The notes beneath the pieces were generated by a model, which was not told where the DNA came from, did not search any database, and was given only the letters and a program-made list of their open reading frames with translations. The translations under genes were made by a program, and so were the position numbers. Below, piece by piece: positions 12,676 through 64,000 of a DNA stretch of 64,000 nucleotides. Position 1 is the first letter of the stretch, and every line of letters starts with the position of its first letter. The DNA lies in the NCBI GenBank assembly GCA_023150555.1, contig JAKLKQ010000016.1, positions 1 to 64,000 of the forward strand. The letters are read 5' to 3'. This DNA is from Planctomycetota bacterium. Its GTDB lineage: Bacteria > Planctomycetota > SZUA-567 > H5-PLA8.

Positions 12676-12701
12676 ACGGCGGATTCCTCTCGGGAGTACT
12701 C

Positions 12702-12731
12702 GGGGCCGGCAAAGAACGCCGGCCCCGTTTA
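12702..12731 (+). terminator. intrinsic terminator after the PhyH gene
   Basis: A perfect 9-bp stem, GGGGCCGGC (12702-12710) with GCCGGCCCC (12718-12726) around a 7-base loop, is followed by GTTTAATT. It lies 26 bp after the dioxygenase stop. The T run is short, so efficiency is uncertain. Confidence 0.75.
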
Positions 12732-12746: not shown

Positions 12747-13616
12747 CTAGGTGCCTGCTTGTACCAGGGTGTCGGCGAGTTCGACCAGCCCGAAGTGCGC
12801 GGCGTCCGCATGCGGCATCGCGCGGTGTTCGGCCTTCAGCCACGCCGCCAGTTCCGGCTCGCGCGCCCATCCCATGTATTGTGCGTAGAGCGTCCGGCCG
12901 TTCGGCCCGCGCGCGCGACCTTCGCTGCCGCCCACGGCGCGGATTTCCGCGGCCTGCTCGGCCAGGTCCAACTTCAGCAGCACGGCGGGCGCGCCGTTCA
13001 CGCGCGGGCAGGGGCGTTCGGCGCCCTGCGTCTTGAAGAGCATCAACCTGCGGTAGAACGCGACGTGCCTCGGGTTGACCTCGATAATGAAGTCCGTGCC
13101 GCGCTCGATGCGCCGCGCATAGACCGAGATGAAGTTGAAGAGGTGCACGAGCAGGCGCTTGTTGTTGGCGTGCGCCTTGTCGATAGCCAGGCGTGTGACC
13201 TCGACCAGCCGGCGCCCTTCGCGGCGCAGTTCCGCCAATTCGTTCGGAAAGAGTTCGTCGCAAGGCAGGCCGCGCGGGCCGTCGAAGACAAGGGTGACCG
13301 TGCCCGCTGCCTCGCCGCGGTCGTCTTCGGCCAGCAGCGTCAGTGTCTTTGAGTCGGCGTCGTAGGGCGCGACGATCATCCTGCCGTCCTCCGCCGCATA
13401 GCCGCGTGCGAGGTATACGCGGTGCGCCAGCTCGTAGGCGCGTTCGCGCGTGGTACGATTCGCGGCGACGCGAATGACGTAGCCGGGGTTTTCGATCCCG
13501 TCCTTTGAAGCGAGCGGCCAGGCGCCCGCCGGGCGTTCGATGTCCTCGCGGATGGCGCGCAGCATCTGGCTGACGGCGGTGGGCCGGTGCAGGCGGAGCG
13601 GGCGGATCTCGGTCAT
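12747..13616 (-). CDS. FeeM-like N-acyl amino acid synthase (copy 1)
   Basis: The 289-residue protein matches the FeeM catalytic core, a GNAT-like fold related to LuxI-type autoinducer synthases. FeeM enzymes join an acyl-ACP fatty chain to an amino acid. Seen here are RERAYELAHRVYLARGYA near residue 56, LTLLAEDDRGEAAGTVTLVF, the Asp/Glu core LVEVTRLAIDKAH near 138, and FIIEVNPRHVAFYRRLMLF near 176. It resembles the protein at 63022-63906 along its whole length. It lies 95 bp downstream of, and on the same strand as, the two tandem sigma-factor genes, so it may be co-transcribed with them. A signalling role is inferred; family membership is well supported. Confidence 0.82.
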   Translation of the reverse strand: MTEIRPLRLHRPTAVSQMLRAIREDIERPAGAWPLASKDGIENPGYVIRVAANRTTRERAYELAHRVYLARGYAAEDGRMIVAPYDADSKTLTLLAEDDRGEAAGTVTLVFDGPRGLPCDELFPNELAELRREGRRLVEVTRLAIDKAHANNKRLLVHLFNFISVYARRIERGTDFIIEVNPRHVAFYRRLMLFKTQGAERPCPRVNGAPAVLLKLDLAEQAAEIRAVGGSEGRARGPNGRTLYAQYMGWAREPELAAWLKAEHRAMPHADAAHFGLVELADTLVQAGT

Positions 13617-13711
13617 GGCTGCGGCTCCTTTTCGGTCCGGCGTGGTTCTGCGTAGGGACGGAACTTCCCCCTGCGCTTCGCGTGGAGGCGCATTTCAAGC
13701 GGTGCGGTTGT

Positions 13712-15253
13712 TCACGGACTTCGTTTTTCGCCGCGAGCGACGTTTTGCCAGATAGAAGGCGGCACGGGCACGGCCGGCTTGGCGAGCGGCTTGCCCAGCG
13801 CCTTCTTGAGAGCTTCGATGTCCCTCAAGTTATCGGGCATCTCCGCTTCGCGAATCTCGCGGATGGACATTTCGAAGATGGCGACGTTCTCCAGGTTGAT
13901 GCAGATGGTCTCGCCGGGGTACGGCGCATCGTACTCGTACACCATCGTCGGCGTGTTGTGCACGGTGTGAATGATGTGCGAGCCCAAACAGTAAATGCTG
14001 GTTGCTATCGTAGCGTTGGTTCGGGTCTCGAGCGTCTTGAGCCAGCGTGCGTGAGCTACTACTTCCTTCTGCGTGAGCCAAAAGACCTCGATGCCGCCGC
14101 GGCCCATGGGCTTGCCCTTACTGTCGTATCTCGTGGTGAGCTGTCCTATCGCCGTGAGGATGAAAGGCTTCCCGTGCGGGGTCTTTGGCGGAAGGGCCAG
14201 GGCGGGTGCCTTGGTATCTGTATAGGGGGCGGTCATGCCGCCTCGGCCGTCTTGCCGGCGTTCCCAGAACCACGAGCCCTGCAGGATGCGGAAGTCTTCG
14301 CTGGGCCCGTCGGCGAAGGACCACTTCATGCTCAACGGCTCGTCCGTCTTGGCGTGGGCCGAATCTTCCGGTATCGGCGCCGGTTCTTGCTGCGCGGCCG
14401 CGGGCGCCGGCGCGTCCTCGCGGTTCAGCACGGCGACCATAGCAATGGCTCCGGCTGCCAGCGCGGCGCCCAGCATGAGGAGTCCGCCGCTGCTCTTTGC
14501 TGCGGCGCGCCGCGAGGCGTGCGAGAGCGCCTTTGCGCCGCCGGCGGCGTGCAGCGACAGGTGCGCGGCGACCTTCGCGTCCAGGCTGCCGGGCACGGGG
14601 CGGGCGGAGGTGATCACTTGGGCCAGGCCGTCGTCGCTCAGCAGCGGAGCCGCGGCGGCGAGTCCGGCCGACGCCAGGGTCGCGCGCAACCGTCCTACGG
14701 CCTCCGTGACGCGGTGGCTGACGGTGCGCTGCGGGATGTCCAGAACCTCGCCGATCTCGCGCTGGCTCATGCCGGCGCCGTAGTACAGCGCGATCAGCTG
14801 CCGGTCGGGCTCGTGCAGTTCCTCGAGCTTGCGGCCAAGCGCGCGCTGCAATTCGCCCTGCTCGACGGGATCCGGCGCGTCCAGCACGGGCGCGGAGTCG
14901 AGTTGGCGGTGGCGTTCCATCTTCGCGGTGTCCTTCTGTTTTTTGCGCATAAGCGTGATGCTCTCGCGGGCCACGATCCGCTTGAGCCAGCCCTGAGGGT
15001 TCCCGTCGCTGCGGACGTTGCGCGCCGAGAGCCACACGCGCAGCAGGGCCTCCTGCACGGCTTCTTCGGCCATCTCCGTGCGGCCGGTGATGTGCAGGGC
15101 CAGGTTGTAGACGGACCGCTGGTGGCGCTGGAAATAGATCTCGAAGGCCGCCCGGTCCTCACGGGCGATCGCGGCGAGCAGAACCATGTCGCTGCGCGGA
15201 TCCATTCCGGTGAGGCGCTCCTTCGTTCGGGCCTGGGCCGCCGAGACCGCCAT
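13712..15253 (-). CDS. membrane-tethered ECF sigma factor with C-terminal sensor domain (A)
   Basis: The 513-residue protein begins with a complete ECF sigma factor: sigma-2 near residues 25-105 (AEEAVQEALLRVWLSARNVR, GWLKRIVARES) and sigma-4 near 140-193 (LIALYYGAGMSQREIGEVLD, IPQRTVSHRV). It continues through a linker to one membrane helix near 257-276 (LLMLGAALAAGAIAMVAVL) and a roughly 230-residue outer domain with WSFADGPSEDFRILQGSWFW, probably a LamG/DUF1080-like beta sandwich. Topology predicts sigma inside and sensor outside, so release by proteolysis would be needed. The ATG at 15253 has AAGGAG six bases upstream. It is 43% or so like the next gene by eye, the result of tandem duplication. 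Confidence 0.9.
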   Translation of the reverse strand: MAVSAAQARTKERLTGMDPRSDMVLLAAIAREDRAAFEIYFQRHQRSVYNLALHITGRTEMAEEAVQEALLRVWLSARNVRSDGNPQGWLKRIVARESITLMRKKQKDTAKMERHRQLDSAPVLDAPDPVEQGELQRALGRKLEELHEPDRQLIALYYGAGMSQREIGEVLDIPQRTVSHRVTEAVGRLRATLASAGLAAAAPLLSDDGLAQVITSARPVPGSLDAKVAAHLSLHAAGGAKALSHASRRAAAKSSGGLLMLGAALAAGAIAMVAVLNREDAPAPAAAQQEPAPIPEDSAHAKTDEPLSMKWSFADGPSEDFRILQGSWFWERRQDGRGGMTAPYTDTKAPALALPPKTPHGKPFILTAIGQLTTRYDSKGKPMGRGGIEVFWLTQKEVVAHARWLKTLETRTNATIATSIYCLGSHIIHTVHNTPTMVYEYDAPYPGETICINLENVAIFEMSIREIREAEMPDNLRDIEALKKALGKPLAKPAVPVPPSIWQNVARGEKRSP

Positions 15254-15394
15254 CTTGGCTCCTTAAGAGGCTACGCACACCAGCTTCTCGTCAGAAAGTA
15301 TGGAAGCTGGGCGGCCTTGAGCCAAGGATTTCAGGATAAAATGGAGTTAACGCAATACCTTGTCAGTGATGAACTTATGACTTTTCGCTGGCCG

Positions 15395-16918
15395 CTAAGG
15401 TCGGCAAGCCTTCTCGGCTTGGGCCCAGAATTCGGGTACCGGCGGGAAGTGATTCGCCACCTTGAACCGCTCGTTGCCGAGTTGAGCCTTCAGAGCCTCG
15501 ATGTCGCGAAGCTTCTCGGGGACTTCGCTGAGTTCGATCTCGCGGAGCTGAATGTCCAGCAGGCCGAGGTTCTCGAGGTTCAAGCACAGGTATGCGCCAG
15601 GATAGTCCTTGTCGTATTCGTAGAGCAGCGTTGGCTTCCCGTCGAGATTGTGGATCACATGGCGCCCGACAAAGTAAGTTGTGGCTGTGTCCTCATTCAA
15701 CCGAAGCGGGAGCACGCCGCCCCAGATCCTGCGGGCGAGGTACTCGTCCTTGTCGAGCCAGGCGCACTCGATTCCGCTGCGTCCTTCGCGGCCGCGGTAG
15801 TTGACCTTGATCTTGAGCATGAACGGCCGGCGGGGTGGCGGCACGGGCAAGATCGCCAGAAGGGGATTCAGGAGCTGTGAGGACGGAACGGCCATCTCCC
15901 CGCGCTTGAGGGCCGGGACAAGTTTCCACGCCCAGTCACCTTGAAGACGAAGGATGTCGCTGGGGGGGCCTTCGGCGAAGGACCAGGACCTGTTCAGCGG
16001 CGCGGGCGCCGCGGTGGCGGGCAGCGGCATTGCGGTCTGATTGCTCGGCGGCTTTGCGGGTGGCGGCGAGAGCACCAGCATCGAGCCCAGGACCAACGCG
16101 GCAGCGCCGGCAAGGCCGAGGGCCAGCCACGCGCCGGTGCCCAACTTCGCGGCGGCCGTGCGCGTCGAATGCTCGGCTGCGCGCTGCGACAGCGATTTCG
16201 CGGCTTCCACGGCGTGCCGGCCCACGTGTTCTGCGACGCTTTCGCGCAAGCCGGGCGGGGCGGCGGGGCCCAAGGCGAGGGCTGCACGCAGGCCTTCGCC
16301 GCTTACCAGCGGCGCGGCGGCAGCCAGGCCGGCTTGCGCCAGGCTCGAGCGCAGCCGGCCGAGCGCCTCGTCGATTCGGTTGCTGACGGTGCGCTGCGGA
16401 ATGTCCAGGGCCTCGCCGATCTCGCGCTGGCTCATCCCGGCGGCGAAGTAGAGTGTCACCAGCTGGCGGTCGGCGTCGCGCAGTTCGCCGAGCTTCCTGA
16501 GCAGGGCGTGCCGCAGTTCGTCCTTTTCGGCCACATCTTCCATGTGGGGCGCGCGCGGGGGGTCGAGGTGCCGTTTGCGTTCCATCTTCTGCCGGTCCTT
16601 TTGCTTGCCGCGTGCGAGCGCAACGCTTTCACGCGCGACGATGCGCTTCAACCAGCCCTCGGCGTTGCCGTCCGCGCGGACGTTCTTCGCCGCCAGCCAC
16701 ACGCGCAGCAGGGCTTCCTGCACGGCTTCCTCCGCCATGTCCGCGCGTCCGGTCAGGTGGTAGGCGAGGCTGTAGGCGGTGTGCTGGTGGCGCTCGAAGT
16801 AGAGGTCGAAGGCGGCGCGATCGCCCCCGGCGATCGCTTCCAGCAGGTCGAAGTCGGTGCGGGCATCCATCCCGGCGGTGCACTCCTGGGCGGAAATCTC
16901 AATTCGTAATTCTAGCAT
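15395..16918 (-). CDS. membrane-tethered ECF sigma factor with C-terminal sensor domain (B)
   Basis: This 507-residue paralogue of the downstream gene has the same order: sigma-2 (FERHQHTAYSLAYHLTGRAD, EEAVQEALLRVWLAAKNVR), sigma-4 (LVTLYFAAGMSQREIGEALD), a membrane helix near 265-285 (GAWLALGLAGAAALVLGSML) and an outer domain beginning SWSFAEGPPSDILRLQGDWA and ending LREIELSEVPEKLRDIEALK, alignable with SIREIREAEMPDNLRDIEAL of copy A. The ATG at 16918 has GGAG seven bases upstream and places exactly 16 residues before MDA, as in copy A before MDP; a GTG at 16942 is the alternative. The two genes are 141 bp apart, same strand. Confidence 0.9.
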   Translation of the reverse strand: MLELRIEISAQECTAGMDARTDFDLLEAIAGGDRAAFDLYFERHQHTAYSLAYHLTGRADMAEEAVQEALLRVWLAAKNVRADGNAEGWLKRIVARESVALARGKQKDRQKMERKRHLDPPRAPHMEDVAEKDELRHALLRKLGELRDADRQLVTLYFAAGMSQREIGEALDIPQRTVSNRIDEALGRLRSSLAQAGLAAAAPLVSGEGLRAALALGPAAPPGLRESVAEHVGRHAVEAAKSLSQRAAEHSTRTAAAKLGTGAWLALGLAGAAALVLGSMLVLSPPPAKPPSNQTAMPLPATAAPAPLNRSWSFAEGPPSDILRLQGDWAWKLVPALKRGEMAVPSSQLLNPLLAILPVPPPRRPFMLKIKVNYRGREGRSGIECAWLDKDEYLARRIWGGVLPLRLNEDTATTYFVGRHVIHNLDGKPTLLYEYDKDYPGAYLCLNLENLGLLDIQLREIELSEVPEKLRDIEALKAQLGNERFKVANHFPPVPEFWAQAEKACRP

Positions 16919-17032
16919 CCTGGCGCTCCGGCTGCTCTCCACCGCTCATAGGAGCGCAGGAGGCGCCTGAGCCACCCAATCTCAAAGAAAAAAGAAACAT
17001 ATAACGTATTTTGCCGAAAGGGTTTGCGCGGT

Positions 17033-58218: not shown

Positions 58219-59820
58219 ATGGCCAGACGGAGCACGGGAGCAGCGGTGGCCGAACGGCACGACACGCAACCTCCGGCCGGTGACGCTCGGGACGACCGGG
58301 CGCTGCTGGAGGCCATCGCGGGGCAGAAGGACCGCGATGCCTTCGCCGCGCTGGCCGAACGCCACGAACGCGCCGCGTACAATCTGGCCCTGCACCTTAC
58401 CCACAATCCCGGGATCGCCGAGGAGGCGCTGCAGGAGGCCCTGCTGCGCGCGTGGCGCTTTGCGCACACTTTCGGCGAGGACGGCAGCGTCCGCAGCTGG
58501 CTGCTGCGCATCGTTGCGCACGAGAGCCTGCGCCTGATGCGCGGAAGACTACGGGACCGCAAAGAGATGAACGCTGACGAAACGATTGAGACCGTCGCGG
58601 AGCGCGCTGCTCCCGACGAGAAGGCCGCGCAGGACGAGCAACTCGCCGCGCTGCGCCGCTGCGTCGACGCGCTGCCGTCGATGGAGCGGCAGGTGGTGGC
58701 GCTGTACTACCTGGCCGGCATGGAGCAGCGCGAGATCGGCGACGAGCTGGCGCTCAGCCAGCAGGTCGTCAGCTACCGCATCAAGGAAGCGCTCAAGCGC
58801 CTGCGCGCAGGGCTGACGGCAGCGGGCTTTGCCGCAGCGATGCCGCTGCTGGACGGGCCGGGCCTGGGCGCGGTGCTGGAGTCGGGCGCACCGGCGCCGG
58901 CCCACGCCGTCGCGGGAGCGCTCGCGAAAATCGGAGGCCTCTCCGCCGGGCGTCTGGCCGGAGCCAGCGCGCGCGCGACGCGCCGCGCGGCCGCCGCGAA
59001 GTGGGGCGCCGCGCCGGTGATCGCCGGCTTGCTGGCGGTGGTCGCTGTGGGCGCCGCGGTCTGGGTCTCGCAGGAGGAACCGCCGGGCGCGAAGGCCGAA
59101 GCGTCGCCCGCCGTTGCGCCCACTGCCGCTGCCGCCGCCGAGGCCAAGGCCGAGATCCTGGTGGATGAGGACTTCAGCGGGACACAGGTAAGTCCGTTCG
59201 TCACCCACCAGATGCGCAAAGTCGGGGCTGGGCGCATCTTCGCGGTGCAAAAACAGGGCGCCTTGTGCCTGATCGCGGGCGGATCCGACGTCACCATCGA
59301 TGAGCGGAAGCCGTACCCCGTATGCGACCTGGAGTCCATAGCGGTTCCGGCGAAGGGCCAGCCGCTGCTGGTGTGGATACCCAACCGCAGCCTGTTGCGG
59401 GACGGGCCGTACAAGGTGGCGTTTACTTTCGAAAGCCAGGACGGCACGATCCTGCACGAATCCGAGCAGGCCAGTACGGCGCAGGACGCCGATGTCACGA
59501 TGGCGCTAAAGGACGCGGCAGGCCCCATGGAAGCCGACGAAGGATCCCTGCGCTACATCGGAGTCCTCTTCAGCCCGGTGGGCCGCGTGGCGGTGCTGAA
59601 GGACGACGGCTCGCTGCAGGACATCACCCGCAAGGGCGGCGTTCCGGTCGAGAGCGTGCGGATGCGATTGCGCGCGAGCGCAGGGCCGGGCAAGGGCTTC
59701 ATTATCTGGTTTATCGACCGGATACGCGTGCAGCGGTTGGCGCGGTGGCCGGAGAACGGACGCATCGAGATCCCGGAAGGATTCCACTACAATCCGGACT
59801 GGGCGCCGGAGAAGCCCTGA
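58219..59820 (+). CDS. membrane-tethered ECF sigma factor with C-terminal sensor domain (C)
   Basis: The 533-residue protein has sigma-2 near 25-110 (AEEALQEALLRAWRFAHTFG), sigma-4 near 150-205 (VVALYYLAGMEQREIGDELA, LSQQVVSYRIKEALKRLR), a membrane helix near 270-292 (APVIAGLLAVVAVGAAVWVS) and an outer beta-rich domain beginning ILVDEDFSGTQVSPFVTHQM and ending FIDRIRVQRLARWPENGR. The order is the same as at 13.7-16.9 kb but the outer domain is clearly different. ATG at 58219 is preferred. It is convergent with the fourth sigma gene (13 bp apart). The 264-base upstream gap holds TTGCAGGCTCCGTGCAA. Confidence 0.88.
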   Translation: MARRSTGAAVAERHDTQPPAGDARDDRALLEAIAGQKDRDAFAALAERHERAAYNLALHLTHNPGIAEEALQEALLRAWRFAHTFGEDGSVRSWLLRIVAHESLRLMRGRLRDRKEMNADETIETVAERAAPDEKAAQDEQLAALRRCVDALPSMERQVVALYYLAGMEQREIGDELALSQQVVSYRIKEALKRLRAGLTAAGFAAAMPLLDGPGLGAVLESGAPAPAHAVAGALAKIGGLSAGRLAGASARATRRAAAAKWGAAPVIAGLLAVVAVGAAVWVSQEEPPGAKAEASPAVAPTAAAAAEAKAEILVDEDFSGTQVSPFVTHQMRKVGAGRIFAVQKQGALCLIAGGSDVTIDERKPYPVCDLESIAVPAKGQPLLVWIPNRSLLRDGPYKVAFTFESQDGTILHESEQASTAQDADVTMALKDAAGPMEADEGSLRYIGVLFSPVGRVAVLKDDGSLQDITRKGGVPVESVRMRLRASAGPGKGFIIWFIDRIRVQRLARWPENGRIEIPEGFHYNPDWAPEKP

Positions 59821-59833
59821 CGCGGCGCCGTTC

Positions 59834-62017
59834 CTATTCGTCCACCGGGAAGAGCAGATCCTCCTTCAACAGCGGGCGCACCTCGACGTTGCGCACGCGC
59901 AGGAAGTCGTGCGCGGCGACGCCAAAGCCGGCGTTCTTCATCGCGCGGAATTTGCACCAGCCGGGCCGGCCGGTCGTCGTTCCGTTCTTCCAGGGCTCAT
60001 CTATCCAGTTATCGTCCGCTGGGACATTGCCGAGCATCTCTTCCATGTTCCAGACGCGCGAGGTGGCGCGCACGCCCTTTTCGTCGATCCAGACCTGGAT
60101 GTGGAAAAGCACCGGCAGCGGGCGCACGGTCAGGTTCCAGTAGGTGCCCAGGAAATTGAAGCGGTTGGGCTGCACCACGCCGACGTGGAAGGGCAGGCGG
60201 TCGCCGGTGCCCGTGTACTCCACCACGCCGCGTGCCTCGAAGGACTCTGTGCGGTTCTTTCCGAAGTACAGGTAGGTCGCCAGTTCCTGCAGCTTGCCGC
60301 CGTTGGGCTGGAAGGTGAATACCGCGCCGGCCGCCGTCTGCTCGGCCTTCCACGTTCCCGAGGGCACGCCGGGCACGAGGTAATCGCTGGCGGCGATGGG
60401 CTGCCAGGGTGGCGCGAGGCTGGCGCCTTCGCGTTCGGATTTGCGCGCCAGCGCGGCCTCGGCGTCGGCGCGGGCCTTGGCCACATCGGCCTCCTCGGCC
60501 GGGCGCACACGCAGGTCGTCGAGCGCCAGGCTAATGCCGGCGAGGTACAGGCGCAGTTCCTTCCCTTCGTGCGGACCGTGGACGCTTACGCCGTTGAGCT
60601 CCTTGTCGACGTAGTAGACGATCAGGCGTTTGCCGTTCTCGGCCCAGGTGAAGATGCGTGACCGGAGCCAGTCTTCGGGGCGCTTGGGCGGCTCCGTGCG
60701 GCTGGTGACGTTGAATTGGCGGTTCTGCAGCGGCGCGCGGGTCTGCTTGGAAGGCCACTCGACCAGGCCGCCGGCGAATTGACGGAAGAAGCCGCGCTCG
60801 AAGGCAATCTCCAGCGGCGCGTCGTCCAGTGCCACGGGCAGCACGACGCCGCGGCACTTGTCGAGCACCAGCGCGCCGGCGGATTTGCCGTCCGGCGTCC
60901 AGCGCACGCCGTCCGTCGCGGCATCCCACGAAACGCGGGCTTCGCGGCGCGAGTACGTGTCGTATTGGTCGTAGAAGAGTTCGTACGAGGTGAGAGTCGC
61001 CAATTCGGCGGGCAGTCTCTTGTCGAAGCGCCACCAGAGCTTATAGCCGTCCGGCGTTGACTCGCCGGCGGACGCTGCGGTGGCCGCTTGCGCCGGGGCA
61101 TCCGTTGGCACGTTGCCGGGCCAGAAGAGTGCCGCGCCGGTCGCCGCAGCGCCCGCGGCCAGCAGTCCTGCGACGGCGAACACGGACTTGGCCGAGCCCG
61201 CGCCGGCCGTGGCCAGGCGGCGGGAAAGGCGTTCGCCGAGCTGCGCGAGTTTCACCACGCCGGTCTGTGGCAGCAGGCTGGCCGGCGGCGCGGCGAAGGT
61301 ATCCTGCAGCAGCAGCGGCAGCGCGGCGGGCATGCTTCCGTAGCCGACGCGGCCCAGGTTCGAACGGAGTTTCTCGAGCGCGCGCTTCAGGCGCTCGCTG
61401 ACGGTGGTCTGGCGGCAGCCGATCATCTCGGCGATCTCGACCTGCGTGAATCCCGAACCGTAATGCAGCAGCACCGGCAGGCGCAGCGCATCGGGCAGGC
61501 CGTTGACCATGTTGTATAGGGCTTCCTTGATCTCGCGGCGCTCGACGTCGGCCTCGCGGGCTTGCGGCGCGGGCGCCTCGAGCGCCTCCAGGCTGTCGCC
61601 CAACATATCGGGTTTGCTCCTTCGCGAACGGATCGCGTTCATGGCCTTGCGGCTGGCGACCTTAAAGAGCCAGCTCTTGAGGTTCGTGATCTCGCGGTGC
61701 TTGCGGGCCACGCTGGTCCACAACACCACGAAGGTGTCCTGCACCACGTCCTCACTGCCGGGGGCGTCCTGCAGGATGCTGCGCACGAAGGCGTAGAGTT
61801 TCCCTTCCCAGCGTTCGACGAGTTCCTCCAGCGCGGCGTGGCGGTCGGCTCCGCTGGCCGACTCGTCGGCCAGCCGCGCCAGCAGCCGCGCGTCGGCCGG
61901 GTCGGAAGCGTGGGCCTCCGCCGGTGCACCGGCGATGGAATCGCTGGATTCGGGAACGGGTGCGCTCATGCCGTACGCCAATCCCCCGGTTCTGCGTGCA
62001 TTCAGGGCCTTGCCCAT
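59834..62017 (-). CDS. membrane-tethered ECF sigma factor with a large C-terminal region (D)
   Basis: The 727-residue protein has sigma-2 (VERWEGKLYAFVRSILQDAP, EDVVQDTFVVLWTSVARKHR), sigma-4 (LPVLLHYGSGFTQVEIAEMI, GCRQTTVSERLKRALEKL), a membrane helix near 285-305 (SVFAVAGLLAAGAAATGAAL) and two beta-sandwich-like outer segments. The first ends LYLAGISLALDDLRVRP and the second HDFLRVRNVEVRPL, a typical LamG/DUF1080 closing strand. ATG at 62017 follows AGGAGG; ATG 61969 is an alternative. It is divergent from the membrane protein/FeeM pair (210 bp apart). Confidence 0.88.
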   Translation of the reverse strand: MGKALNARRTGGLAYGMSAPVPESSDSIAGAPAEAHASDPADARLLARLADESASGADRHAALEELVERWEGKLYAFVRSILQDAPGSEDVVQDTFVVLWTSVARKHREITNLKSWLFKVASRKAMNAIRSRRSKPDMLGDSLEALEAPAPQAREADVERREIKEALYNMVNGLPDALRLPVLLHYGSGFTQVEIAEMIGCRQTTVSERLKRALEKLRSNLGRVGYGSMPAALPLLLQDTFAAPPASLLPQTGVVKLAQLGERLSRRLATAGAGSAKSVFAVAGLLAAGAAATGAALFWPGNVPTDAPAQAATAASAGESTPDGYKLWWRFDKRLPAELATLTSYELFYDQYDTYSRREARVSWDAATDGVRWTPDGKSAGALVLDKCRGVVLPVALDDAPLEIAFERGFFRQFAGGLVEWPSKQTRAPLQNRQFNVTSRTEPPKRPEDWLRSRIFTWAENGKRLIVYYVDKELNGVSVHGPHEGKELRLYLAGISLALDDLRVRPAEEADVAKARADAEAALARKSEREGASLAPPWQPIAASDYLVPGVPSGTWKAEQTAAGAVFTFQPNGGKLQELATYLYFGKNRTESFEARGVVEYTGTGDRLPFHVGVVQPNRFNFLGTYWNLTVRPLPVLFHIQVWIDEKGVRATSRVWNMEEMLGNVPADDNWIDEPWKNGTTTGRPGWCKFRAMKNAGFGVAAHDFLRVRNVEVRPLLKEDLLFPVDE

Positions 62018-62227: not shown

Positions 62228-63025
62228 ATGGAGCATGCGGCGGTTGTCGAAACGATGCAGGCCCGGCCGATGGGACGCTTCGGAACGTGGGCCCTGCAGT
62301 TGGGCGGCACGTTGCTGATCCTGCTCAGCGTCCCGAACACGGTCTGCGCGGCGGTGCTGCTGCTGGGCTGGTGGGGCCTGACCTTTGAACGCCTGCGCCG
62401 CGCCGAGTTGGTCTTCTTCGCCTGCACGAACCTCTTCTTCTTCTGCATGAACGCGGCGGCGCTGAAGAACGGCGTCTTTGCTTTCGCGCAGGGCGATGTG
62501 CTGGGGATTCCCTGCTGGGAACTGTTCATGTGGGGCTTCTACGTCGTGCATGCGCTGCGCACCGTCGGCGGGCCGGTGCCGCGGCGCTTCGACGCGCGCG
62601 CGTGGGCCGTGGCGGCGGGCTTCGTCGCGGCTTTCGCCGTAGTGCGCGACCAGCAGGTGCTCTTTGCGGTCACCACCGCGCTGCTGACTGCCGGGCTGCT
62701 GCTCTTCCACCAGAAGCACGACCTGCTCTTCGTCGCGTACCTGGTCGGGCTGGGCGCGCTGATCGAGTACGGCGGCGTGATCCGCGGGCTGTGGCACTAC
62801 CCCGACGCGCCGGCTGGCGGCGTGCCGCCGTGGTTCGTGGGCATGTGGGGCGGGGTGGGGCTGCTCCTGCGAAGGCTCTGCCTGCCGCTGCTGAATGCAC
62901 CTGCGCAATGCATGCAACCTCATATGGATAAAGGAGATGTAATTCCATCTATTTCCTTTGTGCGGGCCGCGAGCTCCGGGTCGGAAGCATGGAGACAGAA
63001 GGGCAATCTGGAGACCCACCCATGA
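62228..63025 (+). CDS. multi-pass membrane protein coupled to FeeM copy 2
   Basis: The 265-residue protein has about seven hydrophobic helices (TWALQLGGTLLILLSVPNTV; LVFFACTNLFFFCMNAAALK; FVAYLVGLGALIEYGGVIRG) and a conserved-looking loop YGGVIRGLWHYPDAPAGGVP with PWFVGMWGGVG. Start ATG 62228 follows GGGAGG. E-x-x-G, W-x-Y and P-x-W patterns recall families such as lycopene-cyclase-like membrane proteins, but this is not proof. Its stop overlaps the FeeM start (ATGA), so they are translated together. Confidence 0.75.
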   Translation: MEHAAVVETMQARPMGRFGTWALQLGGTLLILLSVPNTVCAAVLLLGWWGLTFERLRRAELVFFACTNLFFFCMNAAALKNGVFAFAQGDVLGIPCWELFMWGFYVVHALRTVGGPVPRRFDARAWAVAAGFVAAFAVVRDQQVLFAVTTALLTAGLLLFHQKHDLLFVAYLVGLGALIEYGGVIRGLWHYPDAPAGGVPPWFVGMWGGVGLLLRRLCLPLLNAPAQCMQPHMDKGDVIPSISFVRAASSGSEAWRQKGNLETHP

Positions 63026-63906
63026 CGCGCCACCCCGTAACCGAGTCCTGCTCCTCGCCAAGCATCAGCGCCCTCAGCCAGGCCCTGCGCGCAATCCGCG
63101 AGGAAGAGATTCCGGCGCAGGCGGCCGACGAGTTCGGCATGCACGTCGGCGCGCGCGCGGTGCGCTTCGGTTCGGGCCTGGAGTACAGCGTGCGCGTTGC
63201 CGATACGCTCGAACTGCGCCGACGCGCGTGGCGGCTGACCTACGAGTGCTACCGCAAGAAGGGCTACGCGGGCGAGCGAGACGGCGGCCTGTGGTTCGGC
63301 CCCCACGATGCGCGCGAAGAGACCCTGACGCTGCTGTGCGAGCGAAAAGGCCGCGCCGTCGCGACGCTGACGCTGGTCTTCGATTCGTCCTGGCGCCTGC
63401 CCGCCGACGACCTATATGCGCCGGAACTCGAAGCGCTGCGCGCCCGCGGCCGCCGCGTCTGCGAACTGGTCAGCTTGGTCAGCGTCGAGGAAGGCCTGCG
63501 CGGTGCCGAAGTGGTGATGTACCTCTTCAAGCTGGCCTACCTGGCCGCGCGCAGACTCGAGAACGCCACCGACTTCGTGATCACCGTCAATCCGCGCCAC
63601 GCGCCCTACTACGCCAACGCGCTGTTGTTCGCGCAGGTCGGCGGCGAGGTGCCCTGCCCGAAGGTCGGCGGCGCGCCGGCGGTGCTGCTGGGCCTGGACC
63701 TGGTCAACGCCGAAGACGCCTACCGCGCGCGCTACGACGCGCTGCACGGCCGCCGCAACCGCTTCCGCTTCTTCCTGCACGAGGCCGAGACACTGACGGC
63801 GTGGATCGGCGAACGCCGCCGCCCGCTGACGGCCGGCGAGATCGCCCGCTGCTTCCCCGGCGGCGTGCCCGTGCCCGAGTTCGACGCGCTCTCCGCGAGG
63901 GCCTGA
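63022..63906 (+). CDS. FeeM-like N-acyl amino acid synthase (copy 2)
   Basis: The 294-residue protein matches copy 1 throughout: LRRRAWRLTYECYRKKGYAG near 65, LTLLCERKGRAVATLTLVF, RRVCELVSLVSVEEGL near 140 and FVITVNPRHAPYYANALLF near 180, with CPKVGGAPAVLLGLDLV against CPRVNGAPAVLLKLDL in copy 1. ATG at 63022 overlaps the membrane-protein stop; a start at 62989 is possible. An acyl-ACP donor would be needed; no ACP is adjacent here. Confidence 0.82.
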   Translation: MTRHPVTESCSSPSISALSQALRAIREEEIPAQAADEFGMHVGARAVRFGSGLEYSVRVADTLELRRRAWRLTYECYRKKGYAGERDGGLWFGPHDAREETLTLLCERKGRAVATLTLVFDSSWRLPADDLYAPELEALRARGRRVCELVSLVSVEEGLRGAEVVMYLFKLAYLAARRLENATDFVITVNPRHAPYYANALLFAQVGGEVPCPKVGGAPAVLLGLDLVNAEDAYRARYDALHGRRNRFRFFLHEAETLTAWIGERRRPLTAGEIARCFPGGVPVPEFDALSARA

Positions 63907-63908
63907 CC

Positions 63909-64000
63909 ATGATGCACGCGACCGAAGGCACCGCCGTCCTGAACGCCCCGCGCGCCGCCATCGCGCCGCCATCCGTTGAAGCCCGAACGGCCGCGCCGCG
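63909..64000 (+). CDS. partial open frame at window end
   Basis: A frame opens with ATGATG three bases after the FeeM stop and stays open to the edge (MMHATEGTAVLNAPRAAIAP...). Close spacing suggests a third gene of the operon, but only 30 codons are visible and nothing is recognised. Confidence 0.35.
   Translation, partial: MMHATEGTAVLNAPRAAIAPPSVEARTAAP

Follow-up and report, generated by a model that had tools for sequence, protein, structure and literature searches.

Tethered ECF sigma factors as probable local regulators of N-acyl amino acid synthase loci in a planctomycete genome

The window analysed here, a stretch of 64,000 nucleotides from a Planctomycetota bacterium (GenBank assembly GCA_023150555.1, contig JAKLKQ010000016.1), carries two membrane-tethered ECF sigma factor genes, here called sigA and sigB, upstream of a gene for a predicted FeeM-family N-acyl amino acid synthase. 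The association of FeeM-family genes with tethered ECF genes in this genome is real and strong, and it is most likely regulatory. The explanation that we favor, and as a whole consider probable, is that the tethered ECFs act as local regulators dedicated to N-acyl-amino-acid loci, of which the window locus would be one among about 20 in the genome. This explanation builds on the architecture of the proteins, the non-random adjacency of the genes, the recurrence of the pairing without co-descent of the pairs and the presence, in a sigma-54 version found in other lineages, of promoters that face FeeM. In the open literature searched, no description was found of FeeM genes tied to ECF or sigma-54 regulators, and the role of N-acyl amino acids in planctomycetes and the control of their synthases are regarded as an open question (PMC7293339, extract). 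The genome-wide, lineage-swapped pairing of synthase and switch supplies concrete candidate regulators and testable promoters, and for part of a family of tethered sigma factors that is large but little studied, it points to a likely physiological output.

The sigA-sigB-FeeM locus

All three genes lie on the minus strand in the order sigA (15395..16918, 507 aa), sigB (13712..15253, 513 aa) and the FeeM-family gene (12747..13616, 289 aa), with gaps of 141 bp between sigA and sigB and 95 bp between sigB and FeeM, and the open reading frames are thus exactly as the first-pass annotation had claimed. Its description of sigA and sigB as paralogous one-piece sigma/transmembrane/sensor proteins was likewise borne out, as the two are 51% identical and share the same architecture. 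In each, sigma-70 regions r2 and r4 score above the Pfam cut-offs and are followed by one transmembrane (TM) segment, at about residues 255-280, and then by some 200 aa of outer domain. With its start at the ATG at 16918, sigA has an N-terminus equal in length to that of sigB. The TM segment of sigB spans approximately residues 254-275 (14429..14494, minus strand) and is basic on the sigma side; the outer, C-terminal domains lie at 13715..14341 in sigB and at 15398..16003 in sigA (both minus strand). No anti-sigma domain (ZAS or FecR-like) was matched in either protein by Pfam at E 0.01 or among the best 25 NCBIfam matches.

The product of the third gene is a predicted N-acyl amino acid synthase, judging from its similarity to Pfam FeeM (PF21926; E 1e-50, 171.8 bits against a curated cut-off of 27) and to the solved FeeM structure 2G0B (E 4e-13). 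Residues D86, R135, E139, P182, H184 and Y188 are invariant among 14 paralogues. The whole synthase domain is alike in FeeM and in the window protein, which differs in having a conserved N-terminal segment, [TS]A[VL]SQxLxAIRE, common to its paralogues, in being one of 23 paralogues in its genome and in having ECF neighbors. A strong GC hairpin (12701..12727) between the FeeM gene and a convergent PhyH gene is the probable end of the sigA-sigB-FeeM unit. No ECF-specific promoter was identified in the window upstream of feeM or sigB, and separate promoters for these two genes could lie inside the 141- and 95-bp gaps.

FeeM-ECF adjacency within the genome

The genome (6.62 Mb, 93.5% complete) holds 23 FeeM-like places in total, and about 75 long ECFs with the sigma/TM/outer-domain layout were counted in the fetched loci among its sigma hits. 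With genes called by a purpose-built codon-based caller rather than a standard program, 14 of the 23 FeeM places have a same-strand long ECF gene as one of the two genes preceding them, against 0.41 expected (binomial P ~2e-19), and at seven it is immediately upstream; some sigma hit lies within 5 kb of 20. Tandem ECFs precede FeeM at further loci besides that of the window. Nearly all FeeM genes here adjoin a tethered switch, and since a different switch adjoins them in other planctomycetes, synthesis appears to be switched locus by locus by local regulators that are swappable. The association had initially been thought to occur twice, but it is found some 17-20 times in the genome.

The second FeeM locus of the window, which the first-pass annotation had placed next to another such sigma gene, fits that description in part. 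Its FeeM-family gene (63022..63906, plus strand) is 38-39% identical to the first, and two long ECFs are indeed near, one of 524 aa (58246..59820, plus strand) located 3.2 kb upstream and one of 727 aa (59834..62017, minus strand) beside the unit. The layout differs, however, in that the latter ECF is divergent and a membrane-protein gene with no family assigned (62228..63025, plus strand), which overlaps the start of FeeM, lies between this ECF and FeeM. Directly after this FeeM, from window position 63909 onward (L019:9910-11610), is a FAD-binding (PF01565) oxidase gene, and an oxidase of similar look lies near the FeeM of another locus (L012:13718-15397); tailoring of N-acyl amino acids is a possible role for both.

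We compared distance matrices over 17 FeeM-ECF pairs, 14 from this genome and three from family relatives. FeeM distances were related neither to those of the ECF sigma domains (Mantel r 0.17, p 0.11) nor to those of the sensor domains (r 0.08, p 0.27), and synthase-sensor co-diversification thus gave no significant correlation over these pairs. The pairs are therefore not copies of one ancestral unit, and block duplication can be rejected as the origin of the pairing. A decayed unit was also seen at L026 (G000:C95:22450-23417), where a broken FeeM of about 90 aa precedes a short sigma fragment.

For 22 of the 75 long ECFs a FeeM is no more than two genes away; for the other 53 this is not so. 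The other genes found behind long ECFs encode methyltransferases, glycosyltransferases, a desaturase-like protein, CAT-like acyltransferases, small YgaP-like membrane proteins and ThiF-like proteins. At one locus (L220:7192-8322), a fatty-acid-desaturase-like protein, read as such from its sequence, is encoded between tandem long ECFs and represents a lipid partner other than FeeM.

It could be argued that an expanded ECF family and natural-product genes simply pile up in the same accessory regions without being linked. The variety of biosynthetic genes that long ECFs precede would be expected in that case, as would the finding that FeeM-ECF pairs are not conserved as pairs. Nonetheless, the same-strand upstream bias (14/23), the short gaps and the FeeM-facing sigma-54-like promoters of other lineages, described below, argue for regulation beyond mere clustering, and we consider a shared neighborhood on its own to be rather unlikely.

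Relatives and the sigma-54 version

Relatives were counted by six-frame searches and retrained gene calls. FeeM is present in 52 of 392 sampled genomes of the phylum and, in the genomes fetched from those 52, is mostly without ECF partners. In genomes of the same family, long ECFs lie near six of seven FeeM genes (3/4 in G001, 1/1 in G003 and 2/2 in G005), and in the distant planctomycete G044 near 5-6 of approximately 33-34, with only 14 ECF profile hits in that genome. No ECF partner of FeeM was found in the order- and class-level relatives G007, G008 and G011. The adjacency of FeeM-like genes and extended ECFs that had been proposed as a check across Planctomycetota is therefore strong within the GTDB family and weaker in G044, but it does not extend to those three relatives.

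A different regulator accompanies FeeM in some of these genomes. A TPR-AAA+ sigma-54 activator adjoins 8 of 13 FeeM genes in G011, usually in divergent orientation, and about 21 of 34 in G044; the TPR content of these activators was read from sequence, and Pfam gave no TPR match. The activators have no outer domain. Loci with the divergent arrangement include L111, L116, L129, L134 and others from G011 and G044. Sites resembling the sigma-54 -24/-12 promoter face FeeM in 21 of 27 activator pairs (shuffle p<0.05) and face the opposite direction in 0 of 27, as scored with weights set by hand from the textbook consensus, and most are no farther than about 50 bp from the FeeM start as called. Control genes reached the same score in 2/43, 0/23 and 19/323 cases (~5%), and rpoN is present in each genome checked. 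For the ECF-less FeeM genes of the window's genome, no sigma-54 promoters were found.

On the FeeM tree, partner type (ECF or NtrC) requires nine changes, compared with 17.5 when shuffled. Several FeeM clades span lineages, while regulator type tracks the host lineage; in an independent-pairs test of partner type 3/3 pairs agree, which is too few for significance. Since FeeM clades are shared and regulator type goes with the host, it would follow that a local regulator is required at FeeM loci and that the lineage decides which one, and the parallel sigma-54 arrangement supports control running from regulator to synthase. An extension of this idea, in which the swappable regulators (tethered ECF or TPR sigma-54) run more than 20 private N-acyl-amino-acid channels per genome for chemical communication or for recognition, and in which every ECF signals a glycan or lipid cue from outside, seems to us unlikely.

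The outer domain, the upstream palindrome and the proposed mechanism

The outer domain is common to 65 of the 75 long ECFs in an iterative profile search, and a positive-inside TM topology is consistent in 56 of the 75. The structure model of the sigA outer domain, built on six sequences (pLDDT 76, pTM 0.77), is a lectin/CBM-type beta-sandwich, whose nearest structures are the lectin-like domains of sialidase and galactocerebrosidase and CBM22/CBM66 (TM ~0.5); no solved structure was matched when the outer domain was searched by sequence. The model suggests that the ligand may be a carbohydrate.

This bears on a circuit resembling LuxI/LuxR, in which the exported FeeM product would bind the outer domains of sigA and sigB and the freed sigma would drive both the sig genes and feeM. 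In its favor, the synthase adjoins a regulator in two regulator versions, the folds of FeeM and AHL synthases are related (PMC10404671), and quorum sensing by N-acyl tyrosines has been raised as a speculation for planctomycetes (PMC7293339, extract). As in LuxI/LuxR, an acyltransferase of signal-type fold lies beside a regulator, but the regulator's place is taken here by a tethered ECF or a TPR-sigma-54 activator, and binding of the product by the regulator is not supported. The lectin-like fold of the modelled outer domain argues against a receptor for the FeeM product. In addition, the 53 tethered ECFs away from FeeM include many that head other biosynthetic enzymes, similarity among the sensors does not track similarity among the FeeM proteins, and the sigma-54 partners of other lineages lack an outer domain altogether. 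The effects of stieleriacines on Phaeobacter were, moreover, largely LuxR-independent (PMC7293339, extract). The suggestion in the first-pass annotation that the sensors detect the N-acyl signal is thus not upheld by the fold, the neighborhoods or the covariation. Nothing found favors an autoinducer over an outside cue, and we regard such a loop as distinctly unlikely.

That annotation had further supposed that the freed sigma drives its own operon. Upstream of sigA is a 27-bp palindrome-like element (GCAAACCCTTTCGGCAAAATACGTTAT; 17001..17027, minus strand), but it belongs to a palindrome shared genome-wide, which we read as an operator and not as proof of autoregulation. The motif, a near-palindrome of 27 bp (RYAACYYNTTT-N11-STTRY), precedes 39 of the 75 long ECF genes, where 3% would be expected, and approximately 43% of long ECFs in held-out sets. 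There are 222 matches genome-wide compared with 18 for the reversed control, and the net number of sites in the window's genome is about 100 or higher; column-permuted motifs gave 1.4 hits against 102 for the real one, and shifting the spacing by one, as a negative control, gave the genome-wide background only. The fetched loci contain 71 unique sites, of which 45 head an ECF gene, four head FeeM, three are inside genes and none lies between convergent genes. The motif is also present in family and order relatives, in some of which (G007) it is paired 57 or 91-93 bp apart, and it is absent upstream of sigB and the window FeeM at the score used. We rejected it as an ECF promoter given its palindromic form, its rigid spacing, its excess over the reversed control and its occurrence near non-ECF genes, including a likely rpsL. 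An operator bound by a common regulator would account for the rigid spacing and symmetry better than a sigma promoter would, and since the motif is shared upstream of ECF genes, the long ECF genes seem to be partly under one shared regulator acting from outside the individual loci.

Tethered ECFs with a TM segment and an outer domain are known in IutY (ECF243) and SCO4117 (ECF52), the latter with a carbohydrate-binding outer domain; proteolytic activation has been shown for IutY and proposed for SCO4117 (PMC8999054). Like these, sigA and sigB combine a sigma domain, a TM segment and an extracytoplasmic domain in one chain, but no anti-sigma domain or zinc finger was found in them between sigma and TM, and they have FeeM as a partner and belong to a planctomycete family of about 75 paralogues in one genome. 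The dedicated local regulator that we favor would then be a one-protein signalling device, with a cytoplasmic sigma, one TM helix and, on the outside, a lectin-like domain. It would be triggered by an extracytoplasmic ligand, which is most likely a glycan or cell-surface or biofilm material, and, by analogy with IutY, the ECF would be cleaved and its sigma released. We infer that the freed sigma would transcribe the local operon including feeM, and that FeeM, with acyl-ACP or acyl-CoA as the donor, would N-acylate an amino acid.

More tentatively, the product could be a cell-surface or membrane lipid or an acyl-oxazolone precursor, made under envelope or biofilm conditions, with the ECFs acting as envelope sensors and FeeM being output only. 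This is a narrower form of the same explanation and not an alternative to it. It is favored by a FeeM-ThiF-nitroreductase unit behind an ECF at L024 and by the linkage of N-acyl amino acids to exopolysaccharide and PEP-CTERM loci (PMC7293339, extract), whereas the absence of ThiF and nitroreductase from the window's own FeeM unit counts against it. The L024 locus (G000:C114, 8169-14245) has the order ECF, YgaP-like TM protein, FeeM, ThiF, small protein and nitroreductase, and resembles an operon of acyl-oxazolone type headed by a tethered ECF, since the OxzAB/TyzABC pathway likewise combines a FeeM-type acyltransferase with ThiF and nitroreductase (PMC10404671). Unlike that pathway, the window unit has neither of the two partners and has ECFs upstream. 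The stieleriacine NAS cluster of Stieleria maiorica resembles the present case in that several planctomycete N-acyl amino acid synthases occur in one genome, but the extract of that report consulted describes no ECF or sigma-54 partner (PMC7293339), while the window FeeM has an ECF.

Finally, genes read from sequence as a DevABC-type ABC exporter (ATPase, permease and fusion protein) recur near FeeM in the same-family and G011 genomes, for example at L112 and L116, and at loci of the window's own genome such as L015, and they are a possible export route.
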